Assembly (NCBI GenBank): GCA_002021875.1
Contig: CP018627.1
Span: 8,556,001-8,620,000 of the forward strand
Direction: 5' to 3'
DNA from: Streptomyces hygroscopicus
Lineage (GTDB): Bacteria > Actinomycetota > Actinomycetes > Streptomycetales > Streptomycetaceae
Length of the DNA stretch: 64,000 nucleotides
In this document: positions 11,678-35,326 of the stretch, one piece after another
Position numbering within the stretch: position 1 is the first letter of the stretch
Layout: every line of letters begins with the position of its first letter
Position numbers and translations under genes: made by a program
Notes under the pieces: model-generated
What the model was told of the DNA's origin: nothing
Seen by the model: only the letters and a program-made list of their open reading frames with translations
The model's database searches: none

Positions 11678-13192
11678 ATGGGGGCGTTCCGGGTGGGCGA
11701 CGGCGGCGGCGGTGCTGGGAAGCGCCCCAATGCGCAATTGCAGTCGTGGTTCGTGCGCAGCGGCTGGTCAAAGGGGGAGCTGGCGCGCCAAGTCAACCGC
11801 AGAGCGCGGCAGTTAGGCGCCCACCACATCAGCACGGACACCTCGCGGGTGCGCCGCTGGCTGGACGGCGAGCAGCCCCGGGAGCCGATTCCGCAGATTC
11901 TCTCCGAATTGTTCTCCGAGCGCTTCGGCTGTGTGGTCGGCATCGAGGACCTCGGGCTGCGCGCCGTCCACCGGTCACCGTCCGTGTCCGGTGTGGATCT
12001 TCCCTGGGCCGGGCCCGAAACGGTCGCGCTGATCGGCGAGTTCTCCCGCAGCGACCTGATGCTCGCCCGCCGCGGCTTCCTCGGCACCTCGCTCTCGCTG
12101 TCCGCGGGCCCCGCCCTCATCGAGCCGATGCAGCGCTGGCTGGTGCCCTCCACGAGCGGACAGCTTGGCGGCGCCAAGGCGGCGGACGCCGGGCGCGCGC
12201 GCCGGGTCTCCCGGCTCTCCGAGCCGGAGCTGGAGCTGCTGGAATCCACCATCGTGATGTTCCGCGCCTGGGACGCCCAGTGCGGCGGCGGGCTGCGCCG
12301 CAAGGCGGTGGTCGGCCAGCTGCACGAGGTCACCGACCTGCTCCAGGAGCCGCATCCGGAGGCCGTCTCCCGGCGGCTGTTCAAGGTCGCGGGCGAGCTC
12401 GCCCAGCTGGCCGGGTGGATGAGCTATGACATCGGGCTCCAGCCCACCGCGCAGAAATACTTCGTGCTCGCCCTGCACGCCGCCAAGGAGTCCGGGGACC
12501 GCCCCCTCGGCTCGTACATCCTCTCCGGCATGAGCCGCCAGATGATCCACGTCGGCCGGCCCGACGACGCGCTGGAGCTGATCCACCTCGCGCAGTACGG
12601 CAGCCGGGAGAACGCCACCCCGCGCACCCAGGCCATGCTGTATGCGATGGAAGCCCGCGCCTACGCCAATATGGGCCAGCCCAGCAAGTGCCACCGCGCG
12701 GTGAAGATGGCCGAGGACACCTTCGCCGACTGCGCCAAGGGCGACAGCGACCCCGACTGGATCCGCTTCTTCTCCGAGGCCGAGCTCAACGCGGAGAACG
12801 CCCACTCCTACCGCGATCTCGCCTATGTCGCCGGCCGCAGCCCCACCTACGCCAAGATGGCCGACCCGGTGATGCGCCAGGCCGTGAAGCTCTTCGGCCA
12901 GGAGGCGGAGAACGACGCGGGCCCCCAGCGTTCGTATGCGCTCAACCTGATCGGCATGGCCACCGTCCATCTCCTCCAGAGGGAGCCGGAGCAGGCCGCC
13001 GGGGTCGCCCGCCTGGCGCTGCCGCTCGCCAAGCGGGTGCGCTCGGAGCGGGTCAACAACCGGCTGCGCAAGACCGTGGACACGGCGGTGCGCCAGTTCG
13101 GCGACGTGCCGGAGATCGCCGATCTCGGCGAGCGGCTGGCCACCCTCATGCCCGATACGCCGGGAGCTGCGGGGCCCGGCCAGGCCGTCTGA
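11678..13192 (+). CDS. nsdA: NsdA, negative regulator of development and antibiotic synthesis
   Basis: A 504-residue protein matching NsdA of Streptomyces, whose loss raises sporulation and antibiotic production. The N-terminal part (about 15-90) resembles a DNA-binding region (LQSWFVRSGWSKGELARQVN, then RVRRWLDGEQP). Residues about 180-480 are helical TPR-like repeats (YFVLALHAAKESGDRPLGSY; QAMLYAMEARAYANMGQPSK). The ATG at 11678 has only a weak GGGAAG upstream. Codon 46 is TTA (11813-11815), so translation should need the bldA tRNA. The gene stands alone between the Prim-Pol gene and amtB. Confidence 0.88.
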   Translation: MGAFRVGDGGGGAGKRPNAQLQSWFVRSGWSKGELARQVNRRARQLGAHHISTDTSRVRRWLDGEQPREPIPQILSELFSERFGCVVGIEDLGLRAVHRSPSVSGVDLPWAGPETVALIGEFSRSDLMLARRGFLGTSLSLSAGPALIEPMQRWLVPSTSGQLGGAKAADAGRARRVSRLSEPELELLESTIVMFRAWDAQCGGGLRRKAVVGQLHEVTDLLQEPHPEAVSRRLFKVAGELAQLAGWMSYDIGLQPTAQKYFVLALHAAKESGDRPLGSYILSGMSRQMIHVGRPDDALELIHLAQYGSRENATPRTQAMLYAMEARAYANMGQPSKCHRAVKMAEDTFADCAKGDSDPDWIRFFSEAELNAENAHSYRDLAYVAGRSPTYAKMADPVMRQAVKLFGQEAENDAGPQRSYALNLIGMATVHLLQREPEQAAGVARLALPLAKRVRSERVNNRLRKTVDTAVRQFGDVPEIADLGERLATLMPDTPGAAGPGQAV

Positions 13193-30978: not shown

Positions 30979-31338
30979 ATGAACGCCCGAGGAGCGCTGG
31001 GCCGCTACGGCGAGGATGTGGCGGTCCGCAGGCTGGCGGAAGCCGGGATGACCGTCCTGGAGCGCAATTGGCGGTGCCGGGACGGCGAGATCGACATCGT
31101 CGCGCTCGACGCCGGTGCGCTGGTGGTGTGCGAGGTCAAGACGCGCCGCGAGGGTGGCTACGAGCATCCGATGGCGGCCGTCGGACCGGACAAGACCGAG
31201 CGGCTGCGGCGGCTGGCGGAGTGCTGGCTGGAGCGGCACGGCGGCCCGCCGCCGGGCGGAGTGCGGATCGACGTGGTGGCGGTGGTGCTGCCCCGCCGGG
31301 GCGCGCCCGTGGTCGAGCATGTGCGAGGGGTGGCCTGA
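30979..31338 (+). CDS. yraN: YraN/UPF0102 family endonuclease-like protein
   Basis: A 119-residue protein with a Holliday-junction-resolvase-like PD-(D/E)xK fold. The active-site pattern is visible as [16 protein letters not shown] and VVCEVKTRR. The ATG at 30979 has GGAGGT 9 nt upstream. Its stop overlaps the next ATG (TGATG), so it is coupled with the comM-like gene and dprA in a DNA-processing operon. A nuclease role is family inference. Confidence 0.92.
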
Positions 31339-32960
31339 TGGGGTTCGCCCGCACCTGCTCGGTGGCGCTGGTCGGGGTCGAGGGCGTCGTGGTCGAGGTC
31401 CAGGCCGATCTGGAGCCGGGAGTGGCCGCCTTCACGCTCGTCGGGCTGCCCGACAAGAGCCTGGTGGAGAGCCGGGACCGGGTCCGCGCGGCCGTCGTCA
31501 ATTCCGGCGGCGAATGGCCGCAGAAGAAGCTCACGGTCGGGCTCAGCCCGGCATCCGTCCCCAAGGGCGGCAGCGGCTTCGACCTGGCCGTGGCCTGTGC
31601 GGTGCTCGGCGCGGCCGAGCGTGTGGATCCGCGTGAGATCGCCGATCTGATGATGATCGGGGAGCTGGGCCTGGACGGCCGGGTCCGGCCGGTCCGCGGG
31701 GTTCTGCCCGCCGTGCTCGCCGCCTCCGAGGCGGGGTACCGCCAGGTCGTGGTTCCCGAGCAGACGGCGGCGGAGGCGGCCCTGGTGCCGGGCGTCTCGG
31801 TGCTGGGCGTGCGGAGCCTGCGCCAGCTGATCGCGGTGCTGACGGACGAGCCGGTGCCCGAGGAGGAGGAGACACAGGAGCTGGGCCGCCCCGATCCGAT
31901 GCTGGCGGGGCTCACCGTGCCCGGCGCCGGTATGGGCACCGGTGTCGCCGCCGTGCCCGGGACCGGCGCGGGGCGGCCCGATATGGCCGAGGTCGCCGGG
32001 CAGCGGGCCGCGCGCACCGCCCTGGAGGTCGCGGCCGCGGGCGGGCACCACCTCTTCCTCAGCGGGCCTCCGGGCGCCGGGAAGACCATGCTGGCCGAGC
32101 GGCTGCCGGGGCTGCTGCCGCCGCTCACCCAGCAGGAGGCCCTGGAGGTCACCGCGGTCCATTCGGTCGCCGGGGTCCTCCCGCCGGGCCAGCCGCTGGT
32201 GGAGAGCCCGCCGTACTGCGCCCCGCATCACTCGGCCACCATGGCCGCGCTTGTCGGCGGGGGAAACGGCCTGCCCAGACCCGGCGCGGTCTCGCTCGCC
32301 CACCGCGGAGTGCTCTTTCTGGACGAGGCTCCCGAGTTCAGCGGGAAGGCGCTGGACGCCCTGCGGCAGCCCCTGGAGTCGGGGCATGTGGTGGTGGCCC
32401 GGTCGGCCGGGATGATGCGGATGCCGGCGCGTTTCCTGCTGATGCTGGCGGCCAACCCCTGCCCCTGCGGGCGCTATGGGCTGGTGGGCGATGTCTGCGA
32501 GTGCTCGCCCACCACGGTCCGCCGCTACCAGGCGAGGCTGTCGGGGCCGCTGCTGGACCGGGTGGACCTGCGTGTCCATGTCGAAGCGGTGAGCCGGGCC
32601 GAGCTCACCGGGGCGCGTGCCGGGGCGGAGGACAGCGCGTCCGTCGCGGCCCGGGTCCGGGAGGCCCGGGAGCGGGCCGCCGCCCGCCTCCAGGACACCC
32701 CTTGGCGGCTGAACAGCGAGGTGCCGGGCCATGAGCTGCGCACCCGCTGGCAGCCGTTCCCCGGTGCGCTGCGCGAGGCCGAGCGCGATATGGAGCGCGG
32801 GTTGCTCACCGCCCGAGGGCTCGACCGGGTGCTGAGGGTTGCCTGGACCGTCGCCGACCTGGCCGGGCACGACCGACCCGCGGCGCCGGACATCGCCCAG
32901 GCGCTGCAGTTACGCACCGGGCTCAGCCGTGGGGTGCCGGTCGCGGCGGGGGAGTGCTGA
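31338..32960 (+). CDS. comM: ComM/YifB-type AAA+ magnesium-chelatase-like ATPase
   Basis: A 540-residue protein. The N-terminal Lon-like fold (about 20-145: FTLVGLPDKSLVESRDRVRA) is followed by the Mg-chelatase AAA+ domain with Walker A GPPGAGKTML and Walker B GVLFLDEAPEF, then NPCPCGRYG and the C-terminal helical domain. ComM-type helicases promote branch migration when foreign DNA recombines. The ATG overlaps the yraN stop and the stop overlaps dprA. Codon 525 is TTA (32910-32912), a bldA-dependent codon near the C-terminus. Confidence 0.93.
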   Translation: MGFARTCSVALVGVEGVVVEVQADLEPGVAAFTLVGLPDKSLVESRDRVRAAVVNSGGEWPQKKLTVGLSPASVPKGGSGFDLAVACAVLGAAERVDPREIADLMMIGELGLDGRVRPVRGVLPAVLAASEAGYRQVVVPEQTAAEAALVPGVSVLGVRSLRQLIAVLTDEPVPEEEETQELGRPDPMLAGLTVPGAGMGTGVAAVPGTGAGRPDMAEVAGQRAARTALEVAAAGGHHLFLSGPPGAGKTMLAERLPGLLPPLTQQEALEVTAVHSVAGVLPPGQPLVESPPYCAPHHSATMAALVGGGNGLPRPGAVSLAHRGVLFLDEAPEFSGKALDALRQPLESGHVVVARSAGMMRMPARFLLMLAANPCPCGRYGLVGDVCECSPTTVRRYQARLSGPLLDRVDLRVHVEAVSRAELTGARAGAEDSASVAARVREARERAAARLQDTPWRLNSEVPGHELRTRWQPFPGALREAERDMERGLLTARGLDRVLRVAWTVADLAGHDRPAAPDIAQALQLRTGLSRGVPVAAGEC

Positions 32961-34363
32961 TGTCCGCTCCTTCGGCGGGTGGCCGCGGCGCCGCCGTCCC
33001 CGCCCTGTTCGCCGAGCCCTGGCAGGGACAGGGCGCCCCGGATGAGGCGCGGAGAGCCCTGGACGAGGGAGGGCAGGGTGTCCCGGACGCGGGGCACGGC
33101 GTCTCGGGCGAGGAGCACGGGGCCGTGGACGCGGGGCACGGTGCCCCGGACGGGGCGCAGGGGCTCCCCGAGGGGCACGGCGTCCCGGACGAGGAGCGGC
33201 TGGCGCGGGCGGCGCTCACCCGGCTCGTGGAGCCCGGGGACCATGCGGTGGGGCGCTGGCTGCGTCGCATGGGGCCGGTGGCGCTGTGGCGGGCGCTCAC
33301 CGGGAAGGGCAAGCCCCCGCCCGGGGCGAGCGGGGACCGGCTGGCCGGATGCGCGCTGCGGGCGGCCGGGCTGGACCCGGCCGCCGACCTCGCGCTGATC
33401 GACCGGCGCGAAGGTCGGTTCATCTGCCCCGGGGATCTGGACTGGCCCGGTCAGCTCGACGATCTCGGGGACGCTCGCCCGGTCGGGTTATGGGTGCGCG
33501 GCCCGGCCGGCTTGCGGATGTGGGCGCTGCGCTCGGTCGCTGTGGTGGGAGCGCGGGCCTGCAGTGACTACGGCGCGCATGTCGCGGCGACGCTCGGCGC
33601 CGGGCTGGCCGAGCGGGGCTGGGTGGTCGTCTCCGGTGCGGCCCATGGCGTGGACGGCGCGGCTCACCGAGGGACGCTCGCCGCGGGCGGGGCCACCATC
33701 GCGGTGCTCGCCTCGGGTGTGGACGTCCCCTATCCGCGAGGGCATGCCGAGTTGATCGAGCGCATCGCGGAACAGGGTCTGGTACTGGCCGAGTTGCCGC
33801 CCGGTGCGCATCCGACGCGCCCCAGATTCGTGCTCCGCAACCGGGTCATCGCCGCGCTCACCCGAGGCACGGTCGTGGTCGAGGCCCAGTTCCGCAGCGG
33901 ATCGCTGGTCACCGCGCGCCGGGCACAACAGCTCGGGCGGTCCACCATGGGGGTGCCGGGCCCGGTGACCAGCGGGCTGTCCGCCGGGGTGCATGAACTG
34001 CTGCGCGGTGAGGCGGTCCTGGTCACCGATGCCGCCGAAGTGGCCGAGCTCATCGGCGGCATCGGAGACCTCGCCCCGGAGCGGCGAGGCCCGCTGGTCG
34101 AGCGAGACCTTCTCGATCCCGTGACGGCACGGGTGCTGGAAGCGTTGTCGGCACGAGGCGGCAACGACCTGCGGGAGGTGGCCCGGGAATCCGGGACCGG
34201 CTGCGACGAGGCCCTGGGCCGGCTCCATGAACTGCTCGCCCTGGGCTTTGTCGAACGTCATGGCGATCGATGGGAGTTGGTCCGTCCCGTGAGCCCGAGC
34301 GATGGCGCACGGCGAGGCGATCCCCCGAATCGGGGCAATCGGGTGAAAGGGTTGAGGCGATGA
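32960..34363 (+). CDS. dprA: DNA processing protein DprA with N-terminal repeat insert
   Basis: DprA binds single-stranded DNA and loads RecA during recombination of incoming DNA. The Rossmann core is clear: VAVVGARACSDYGAHVA, VVSGAAHGVDGAAHRGTLAA, AVLASGVDVPYPRGHAELIE, FVLRNRVIAALTRGTVVVEA. The C-terminus has a winged-helix segment (about 400-450). Residues about 20-75 are a degenerate repeat of GQGVPD/GHGAPD type, placed before DEERLARAALTRL where most family members begin. The length is 467 residues. Codon 177 is TTA (33488-33490). GGGGAG precedes the ATG, which overlaps the comM stop. Confidence 0.93.
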   Translation: MSAPSAGGRGAAVPALFAEPWQGQGAPDEARRALDEGGQGVPDAGHGVSGEEHGAVDAGHGAPDGAQGLPEGHGVPDEERLARAALTRLVEPGDHAVGRWLRRMGPVALWRALTGKGKPPPGASGDRLAGCALRAAGLDPAADLALIDRREGRFICPGDLDWPGQLDDLGDARPVGLWVRGPAGLRMWALRSVAVVGARACSDYGAHVAATLGAGLAERGWVVVSGAAHGVDGAAHRGTLAAGGATIAVLASGVDVPYPRGHAELIERIAEQGLVLAELPPGAHPTRPRFVLRNRVIAALTRGTVVVEAQFRSGSLVTARRAQQLGRSTMGVPGPVTSGLSAGVHELLRGEAVLVTDAAEVAELIGGIGDLAPERRGPLVERDLLDPVTARVLEALSARGGNDLREVARESGTGCDEALGRLHELLALGFVERHGDRWELVRPVSPSDGARRGDPPNRGNRVKGLRR

Positions 34364-34492
34364 CCGTATCCGCACACCGCCGAGCCGAAGCCCTTCGCAT
34401 ACCGCGACGCCGCAGTCACGCTACGCTCACAAGGTTTCCGGCGGAAGCGTACGTCCTCACCCATGTCATGGCAGAACGGCTCAAGGCGACGA

Positions 34493-35326
34493 ATGCCCCA
34501 GCACATCTCCGGGTCTGATAGCGCGGCGCCGCCCGCGGCCCGCGGCGCGGTGCGCCCTGCCGCGCCCTCATCGCTCGACGAGCTGTGGCGGTCGTACAAG
34601 ACCACGGGCGACGGCCGGCTGCGGGAGCAGCTGATCCTGCACTACTCACCGCTGGTGAAATATGTGGCCGGCCGGGTCAGCGTCGGGCTGCCCTCCAACG
34701 TCGAGCAGGCGGACTTCGTCTCGTCCGGGGTCTTCGGACTCATCGACGCCATCGAGAAGTTCGACCCCGAGCGCGCCATCAAGTTCGAGACCTACGCGAT
34801 CACCCGGATCCGCGGCGCGATGATCGACGAGCTGCGGGCACTGGACTGGATCCCGCGGTCGGTCCGTCAGAAGGCCCGGGCCGTGGAGCGGGCGTACGCC
34901 ACGCTGGAGGCCCAGCTGCGCCGCACCCCCTCGGAGGCCGAGGTGGCGGCCGAGATGGACATCAGCATCGAGGAACTGCACGGCGTTTTCAGCCAGTTGT
35001 CGCTCGCCAATGTGGTCGCTCTGGAGGAGCTGCTGCATGTCGGCGGCGAGGGCGGCGACCGGCTCAGCCTCATGGACACCCTCGAGGACACCGCCGCGGA
35101 CAACCCGGTCGAGGTGGCCGAGGACCGGGAGCTGCGCAGGCTGCTCGCCCGAGCGATCAACACCCTCCCGGAGCGGGAGAAGACCGTGGTCACGCTCTAC
35201 TACTACGAGGGGCTCACGCTCGCCGAGATCGGCCAGGTGCTCGGCGTCACCGAGAGCAGGGTCAGCCAGATTCACACCAAGTCGGTGCTCCAGCTGCGGG
35301 CGAAACTCGCCGACGTCGGCCGCTGA
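34493..35326 (+). CDS. whiG: RNA polymerase sigma factor WhiG
   Basis: WhiG, a FliA-class sigma factor, commits Streptomyces aerial hyphae to sporulation. The 277-residue protein has region 2 ([40 protein letters not shown]), region 3 ([20 protein letters not shown]) and region 4 ([40 protein letters not shown]). The start MPQHISGSD matches the known N-terminus; an upstream in-frame ATG at 34463 is less likely. In S. coelicolor the dprA-whiG interval is, from memory, occupied by inserted genes, while here they are adjacent. Confidence 0.96.

Follow-up and report, generated by a model that had tools for sequence, protein, structure and literature searches.

The protein DprA handles single-stranded DNA and loads RecA. 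A gene with a TTA codon is one whose expression Streptomyces can delay until development. If dprA belongs to this class, a single synonymous codon would provide a simple handle for asking whether uptake or recombination of DNA is part of development. According to the accessible part of one survey, Streptomyces genomes carry 51 to 505 TTA genes, with a mean of 177, and most of these codons are poorly conserved; genes for replication, recombination and repair are enriched among them in 119 of 213 species (PMC10327506). TTA codons of streptomycetes are biased towards gene starts, as stated in the accessible part of another study (PMC4255298).

The window, that is, the whole stretch of DNA that was analyzed, comprises 64,000 nucleotides and corresponds to positions 8,556,001-8,620,000 of the 12.01-Mb chromosome of Streptomyces hygroscopicus. 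Genes were called with a codon model whose training set consisted of the window and 40 other stretches of the same genome. The model predicts 56 genes, of which 53 are free of TTA. The gene calls agree with the preliminary description, which had reported a single TTA in nsdA, comM and dprA and in no other gene of the window. The genome also encodes a tRNA-Leu with the anticodon TAA, which is of the bldA type and reads UUA (ARAGORN, locus L203). The features considered here are as follows.

nsdA, 11678 to 13192, plus strand: gene named in the preliminary description; no Pfam match; TTA codon 46 at 11813-11815
yraN (UPF0102), 30979 to 31338, plus strand: upstream neighbor used as a control; PF02021, E 8.5e-27; TTA in 1/64 genomes outside the group defined below
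comM, 31338 to 32960, plus strand: YifB/ComM-type AAA+ protein of 540 residues; PF13541, PF01078 and PF13335 in order
comM TTA codon 525, 32910 to 32912, plus strand: 15 codons downstream of it; recent, not conserved
dprA, 32960 to 34363, plus strand: 467 residues; PF02481 (DNA_processg_A), E 1.2e-61, 208 bits, residues 148-356
dprA TTA codon 177, 33488 to 33490, plus strand: present in the whole S. violaceusniger-type group; one change on the tree
whiG-type sigma factor gene, 34463 to 35326, plus strand: downstream neighbor used as a control; TTA in 0/71 genomes

The ChlI, Mg_chelatase and Mg_chelatase_C domains of the comM product follow each other in the order expected for ComM. The DNA_processg_A domain identifies the next gene as dprA, and with the gene calls it places the TTA in frame within a genuine gene. 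The sequence shows a one-base overlap between the dprA ATG and the comM stop codon. The TTA is codon 177 when counted from this ATG at 32960, and codon 179 if counted from a GTG at 32954. The gene downstream is presumably whiG, judging by its position and translation. In the group to which the window genome belongs, the N-terminal part of the translated DprA includes a low-complexity stretch made up of degenerate GHGAPD-like repeats (about 33020-33184 in the window), and the number of residues ahead of TTA177 varies among group members. A wide conservation of the TTA46 of nsdA is not supported, the codon being present in only two of the 30 best orthologue loci, those of the window genome itself and of genome G055.

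Loci of relatives were compared in two sets. The first consists of the best 80 of 169 relatives, where S. niphimycinicus is among the nearest to the window genome. The second consists of 80 of the 163 genomes with a dprA match, taken mostly from the top of the list and hence from nearer relatives. Five loci of the second set (L144, L153, L160, L161 and L178) were dropped because their identity over part of dprA marked them as duplicates of first-set loci. L124 (genome G150) duplicates L003, both being S. niphimycinicus, and was dropped as well. L173, whose sole TTA lies beyond the alignment, was not counted. A tree of 153 rows was built from comM and whiG with FastTree, excluding L012 and L023, which have too little sequence.

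Codon 177 of dprA is TTA in the window and in 14 related first-set loci (L003-L016), 15 out of 15, and three further distinct carriers in the second set bring the count to 18/18 in the group and 0/137 outside it. The group was delimited on the tree as the smallest set that includes every TTA177 row, and 18/18 therefore means that no loss has occurred within it; from the species names of the relatives we take it to be the S. violaceusniger group. Outside, the codon is CTG, CTC, CTA or TTG in all 66 first-set genomes and likewise in the second set. The 17 TTA177 rows on the tree fall into one group with a single change; the codon was gained once and then retained. A pattern search for dprA TTA177 across 392 genomes of the genus gave 11 matches, of which five are known group members and the other six are pattern matches only.

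The TTA of comM has a different history. Only two genomes, that of the window and that of S. niphimycinicus (L003), have TTA at codon 525; comM sequence is missing from L012. The near relative L123 has TTG there, and all other members of the group with readable comM have CTG, so that the comM orthologues share no conserved TTA position. The site pattern of comM TTA525 is found in the window genome only among the 392 genomes, which is a lower bound because at least one known carrier, G150 (TTA525 in L124), escaped the search. Comparison of orthologues, which the preliminary description had proposed as a check on both codons, thus upholds the dprA codon across its group and confines the comM codon to two genomes. 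Because one codon is private and the other group-wide, they represent two events of different age and not one operon-wide signal, and the paired signal read from the two genes in the preliminary description was rejected. The comM TTA525 is a recent synonymous change with no established consequence that probably lies next to dprA by coincidence. It would have been over-read from this genome alone; a TTA found in a single genome calls for a check of orthologues.

In another member of the group, Streptomyces sp. NEAU-Y11, comM is split by a 5.3-kb insert (L016:3946-9248) between residues 329 and 330, within GVLFLD|EAPEF, a stretch that we take to be the Walker B motif. The insert encodes two Phage_integrase proteins and a DUF6262 protein, presumably a Tn554-like trio. 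The comM gene is an insertion target of resistance islands in Acinetobacter.

The preliminary description considered two adjacent genes with one TTA each unlikely by chance. A sample of 40 stretches of 20 kb from the same genome has 596 predicted genes, edge pieces counted, of which 17 carry TTA; the codon accounts for 18 of the 221,802 codons. The probability that comM and dprA, as a pair named beforehand, would both contain TTA is about 0.0016, so that in this sense the statement holds. Otherwise it does not, as about 0.045 adjacent TTA pairs are expected in a window of 56 genes but about 7 in the whole genome; the 40 stretches contain one clear pair (L092) and perhaps another (L104). The adjacency is mildly unusual within the window, but it is weak evidence and does not show joint control. 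The pairing is most likely coincidental.

Outside the group, dprA gains TTA repeatedly. The codon is present in the aligned part of dprA in 17 of the 137 outside genomes (4/66 in the first set and 13/71 in the deduplicated second set), at ten codon positions, and the aligned dprA of the other 120 has none. TTA presence in dprA requires 15 parsimony changes on the tree. When each codon is counted alone, six changes fall on codon 279, three on codon 133 and two on codon 110. TTG, a minor codon one transition away from TTA, is strongly conserved at codon 279, where it stands in 81 of the 137 outside genomes and in 15/15 of the group.

The neighbors of dprA are nearly free of TTA. In the same 71 second-set genomes, the 13 carriers of dprA TTA compare with 3 of 462 copies of seven neighboring genes: comM 2/71, whiG 0/71, yraN 1/64, lepB2 0/65, lepB3 0/64, lepB4 0/65 and nudix 0/62, where the four lepB-like queries could match one and the same copy. 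DUF2469, which is outside the 462 copies, has TTA in 0/71. The third-position GC content (GC3) of dprA, 0.880, is close to the 0.886-0.889 of lepB2, nudix and yraN. TTA and CTA occur in the ratio 15:14 in dprA, compared to 3:35 in the seven controls (p 7.5e-5), and for TTA and TTG the ratios are 15:269 and 3:426 (p 1.7e-4); both tests assume independent genomes, an assumption that does not hold. In the first set, outside the group, TTA was found in one of 1212 copies of twenty other neighbors (summed by hand), with comM (2/65) counted separately.

The outside TTAs are concentrated near the start of the gene. The first 18% of the aligned dprA holds 10 of the 19 TTAs, compared to 956 of 5727 leucine codons (p 3e-4) and 64 of 507 TTG codons (p 5e-5). 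When the early TTAs are tallied by hand as events, the count is 9 of 18 (p 0.001). CTA (7/24) and ATA (17/54) also lean early, but less than TTA, and the early stretch is variable in amino acid. TTA177 itself is not close to the start.

The retention of TTA177 in the group was considered as proof of selection and rejected, because about one fifth of the columns with other A-ending codons of the window are fixed as well. In columns that have one amino acid throughout the group, fixation is seen for 15 of the 71 A-ending fourfold codons of the window, for 3 of the 15 in dprA, and for 5 of the 7 twofold A-ending codons of dprA. Pointing the other way, 0/7 leucine columns holding CTA and 0/46 holding CTT are fixed; for those holding TTG the count is 8/50.

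Three other genes were compared using 30 loci each, the best-scoring among 101 (comEC), 41 (recN) and 41 (radA) genomes searched. TTA is present in comEC in 6 of the 30 genomes, as the last sense codon in one of them (G064, L323); some of the comEC reading frames take in open sequence upstream of the gene. The 502 codons read from the window genome's own comEC, a part of the gene, contain no TTA. Neither recN nor radA has TTA in any of its 30 loci, and their flanks have it in 1 of 140 gene pieces; with GC3 values of 0.919 and 0.936, respectively, recN and radA have a stronger codon bias than dprA and hence are not matched controls. PF06144 matched in only 1 of 41 genomes and was unusable as a further control. 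Genome G064 has TTA in dprA, comM and comEC, but the comEC and dprA TTAs mostly do not coincide: among the five comEC-TTA genomes with a fetched dprA, G064 is the only one to have both.

The repeated independent gains in dprA, together with the TTAs in comEC, give some support to the idea that DprA is bldA-gated. A TTA in dprA would make the completion of DprA dependent on the bldA tRNA. UUA would then limit DprA output, and single-stranded DNA handling and RecA loading would be held back until that tRNA becomes abundant in late growth. That DprA synthesis has in this way repeatedly become bldA-dependent, and that selection favored the arrangement, is a proposition for which the chances appear about even. 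A broader version, in which the DNA-uptake pathway as a whole (the ComEC channel and DprA as recombination mediator, whether relict or working) has repeatedly come under bldA translational control, would restrict uptake or single-stranded DNA recombination to late growth, when neighboring hyphae lyse; this appears unlikely, though not negligible.

The main competing explanation is that codon selection on dprA, and also on comEC, is relaxed. Both genes would be little expressed and nearly dispensable, and rare codons would drift in and out, especially by TTG to TTA changes, with no regulatory purpose; the bldA dependence would be real in principle but unselected. Codon bias in dprA is indeed weak as a whole, with the rare codons TTG, AGA and ACA two- to five-fold more frequent than the genome average, and comEC has a similar profile (83 TTG and 30 AGA per 10k, GC3 0.871). 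The pooled TTA:TTG ratio of dprA, 19:507, equals that of the window genome, 18:561 (p 0.74), so that measured against the genome average there is no TTA excess relative to TTG, and the six separate changes at codon 279 occur where TTG predominates. Furthermore, 6 of the 169 genomes have no dprA match at the threshold used, and three (G083, G093 and G127) have two separate matches each, possibly from broken or split genes, although assembly gaps might account for such cases. In Kitasatospora viridifaciens, according to the accessible part of PMC9500057, DNA uptake was not seen in walled cells, and the comEA and comEC homologs, whose role is described there as unknown, are dispensable for uptake by L-forms. 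However, relaxed selection does not readily explain the TTA excess over CTA in dprA next to GC3-matched neighbors that are nearly TTA-free, nor the early bias of TTA, which TTG does not share. Moreover, whiG, the only control matched to dprA for TTG, is almost equally rich in this codon and has no TTA. Relaxed selection is thus a serious candidate, with a probability somewhat below even. The gene dprA is either repeatedly bldA-gated or, with almost the same probability, a gene under weak constraint that collects rare codons.

Two further explanations involve the neighbors of dprA. The preliminary description proposed that TTA is present in both comM and dprA so that the whole DNA-processing operon starts late. 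Outside the group, dprA indeed has TTA in three of the four genomes with a comM TTA, compared to 14 of the 132 others (Fisher p 0.006). The three genomes are L032 (S. scopuliridis), L128 and L145, and their codons differ from those of the window. However, the tree offers five independent pairs, one or two of which change in the same way and none in the opposite way, too few for a test. The four outside genomes with a comM TTA, two in each set, use four different codons; comM525 is private to its two carriers, and a stop at this position would cost ComM only its last 16 residues. Coordinated control of this kind is improbable. Still less probable, and close to negligible, is a polar effect, in which ribosomes stalled at the dprA UUA would expose the transcript and reduce read-through into whiG, tuning the sporulation sigma factor. 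The whiG-type gene begins about 100 bases past dprA in the window, and a whiG match is present on all 160 dprA loci scanned, a count of presence and not of order or spacing. However, nothing in these data supports a reliance of whiG on transcription through dprA, and TTA is absent from dprA in the majority of genomes.

The preferred reading, bldA-gated synthesis of DprA, can be compared with what has been described elsewhere. The domain content of DprA and ComM and the adjacency of yraN, comM and dprA resemble those of the natural-transformation proteins. No paper linking dprA to TTA or bldA was found among open-licence articles, judging from titles, the openings of abstracts and counts of terms; a word search of the main text of PMC4255298 does not find dprA, and the gene is not named in the displayed part of the list of conserved TTA orthogroups in PMC10327506. 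Like the DNA-handling genes of the category enriched in that survey, dprA acts on DNA. However, the genes mentioned in the accessible part of PMC10327506 are transposases, nucleases and helicases, for which horizontal transfer is suggested, whereas dprA is a chromosomal gene beside comM and whiG that gains its TTA in place. What dprA shares with bldA-dependent TTA genes, such as adpA and the genes in which TTA is frequent (PMC4255298, Table 2, as far as accessible), is a TTA in frame where the genome also encodes the UUA-reading tRNA, a skew towards the gene start (in dprA, outside the group) and recurrence in orthologs. Unlike dprA, whose TTA is confined to a minority of genomes and falls on many different codons, adpA has TTA in all streptomycetes analyzed in the accessible part of that study.
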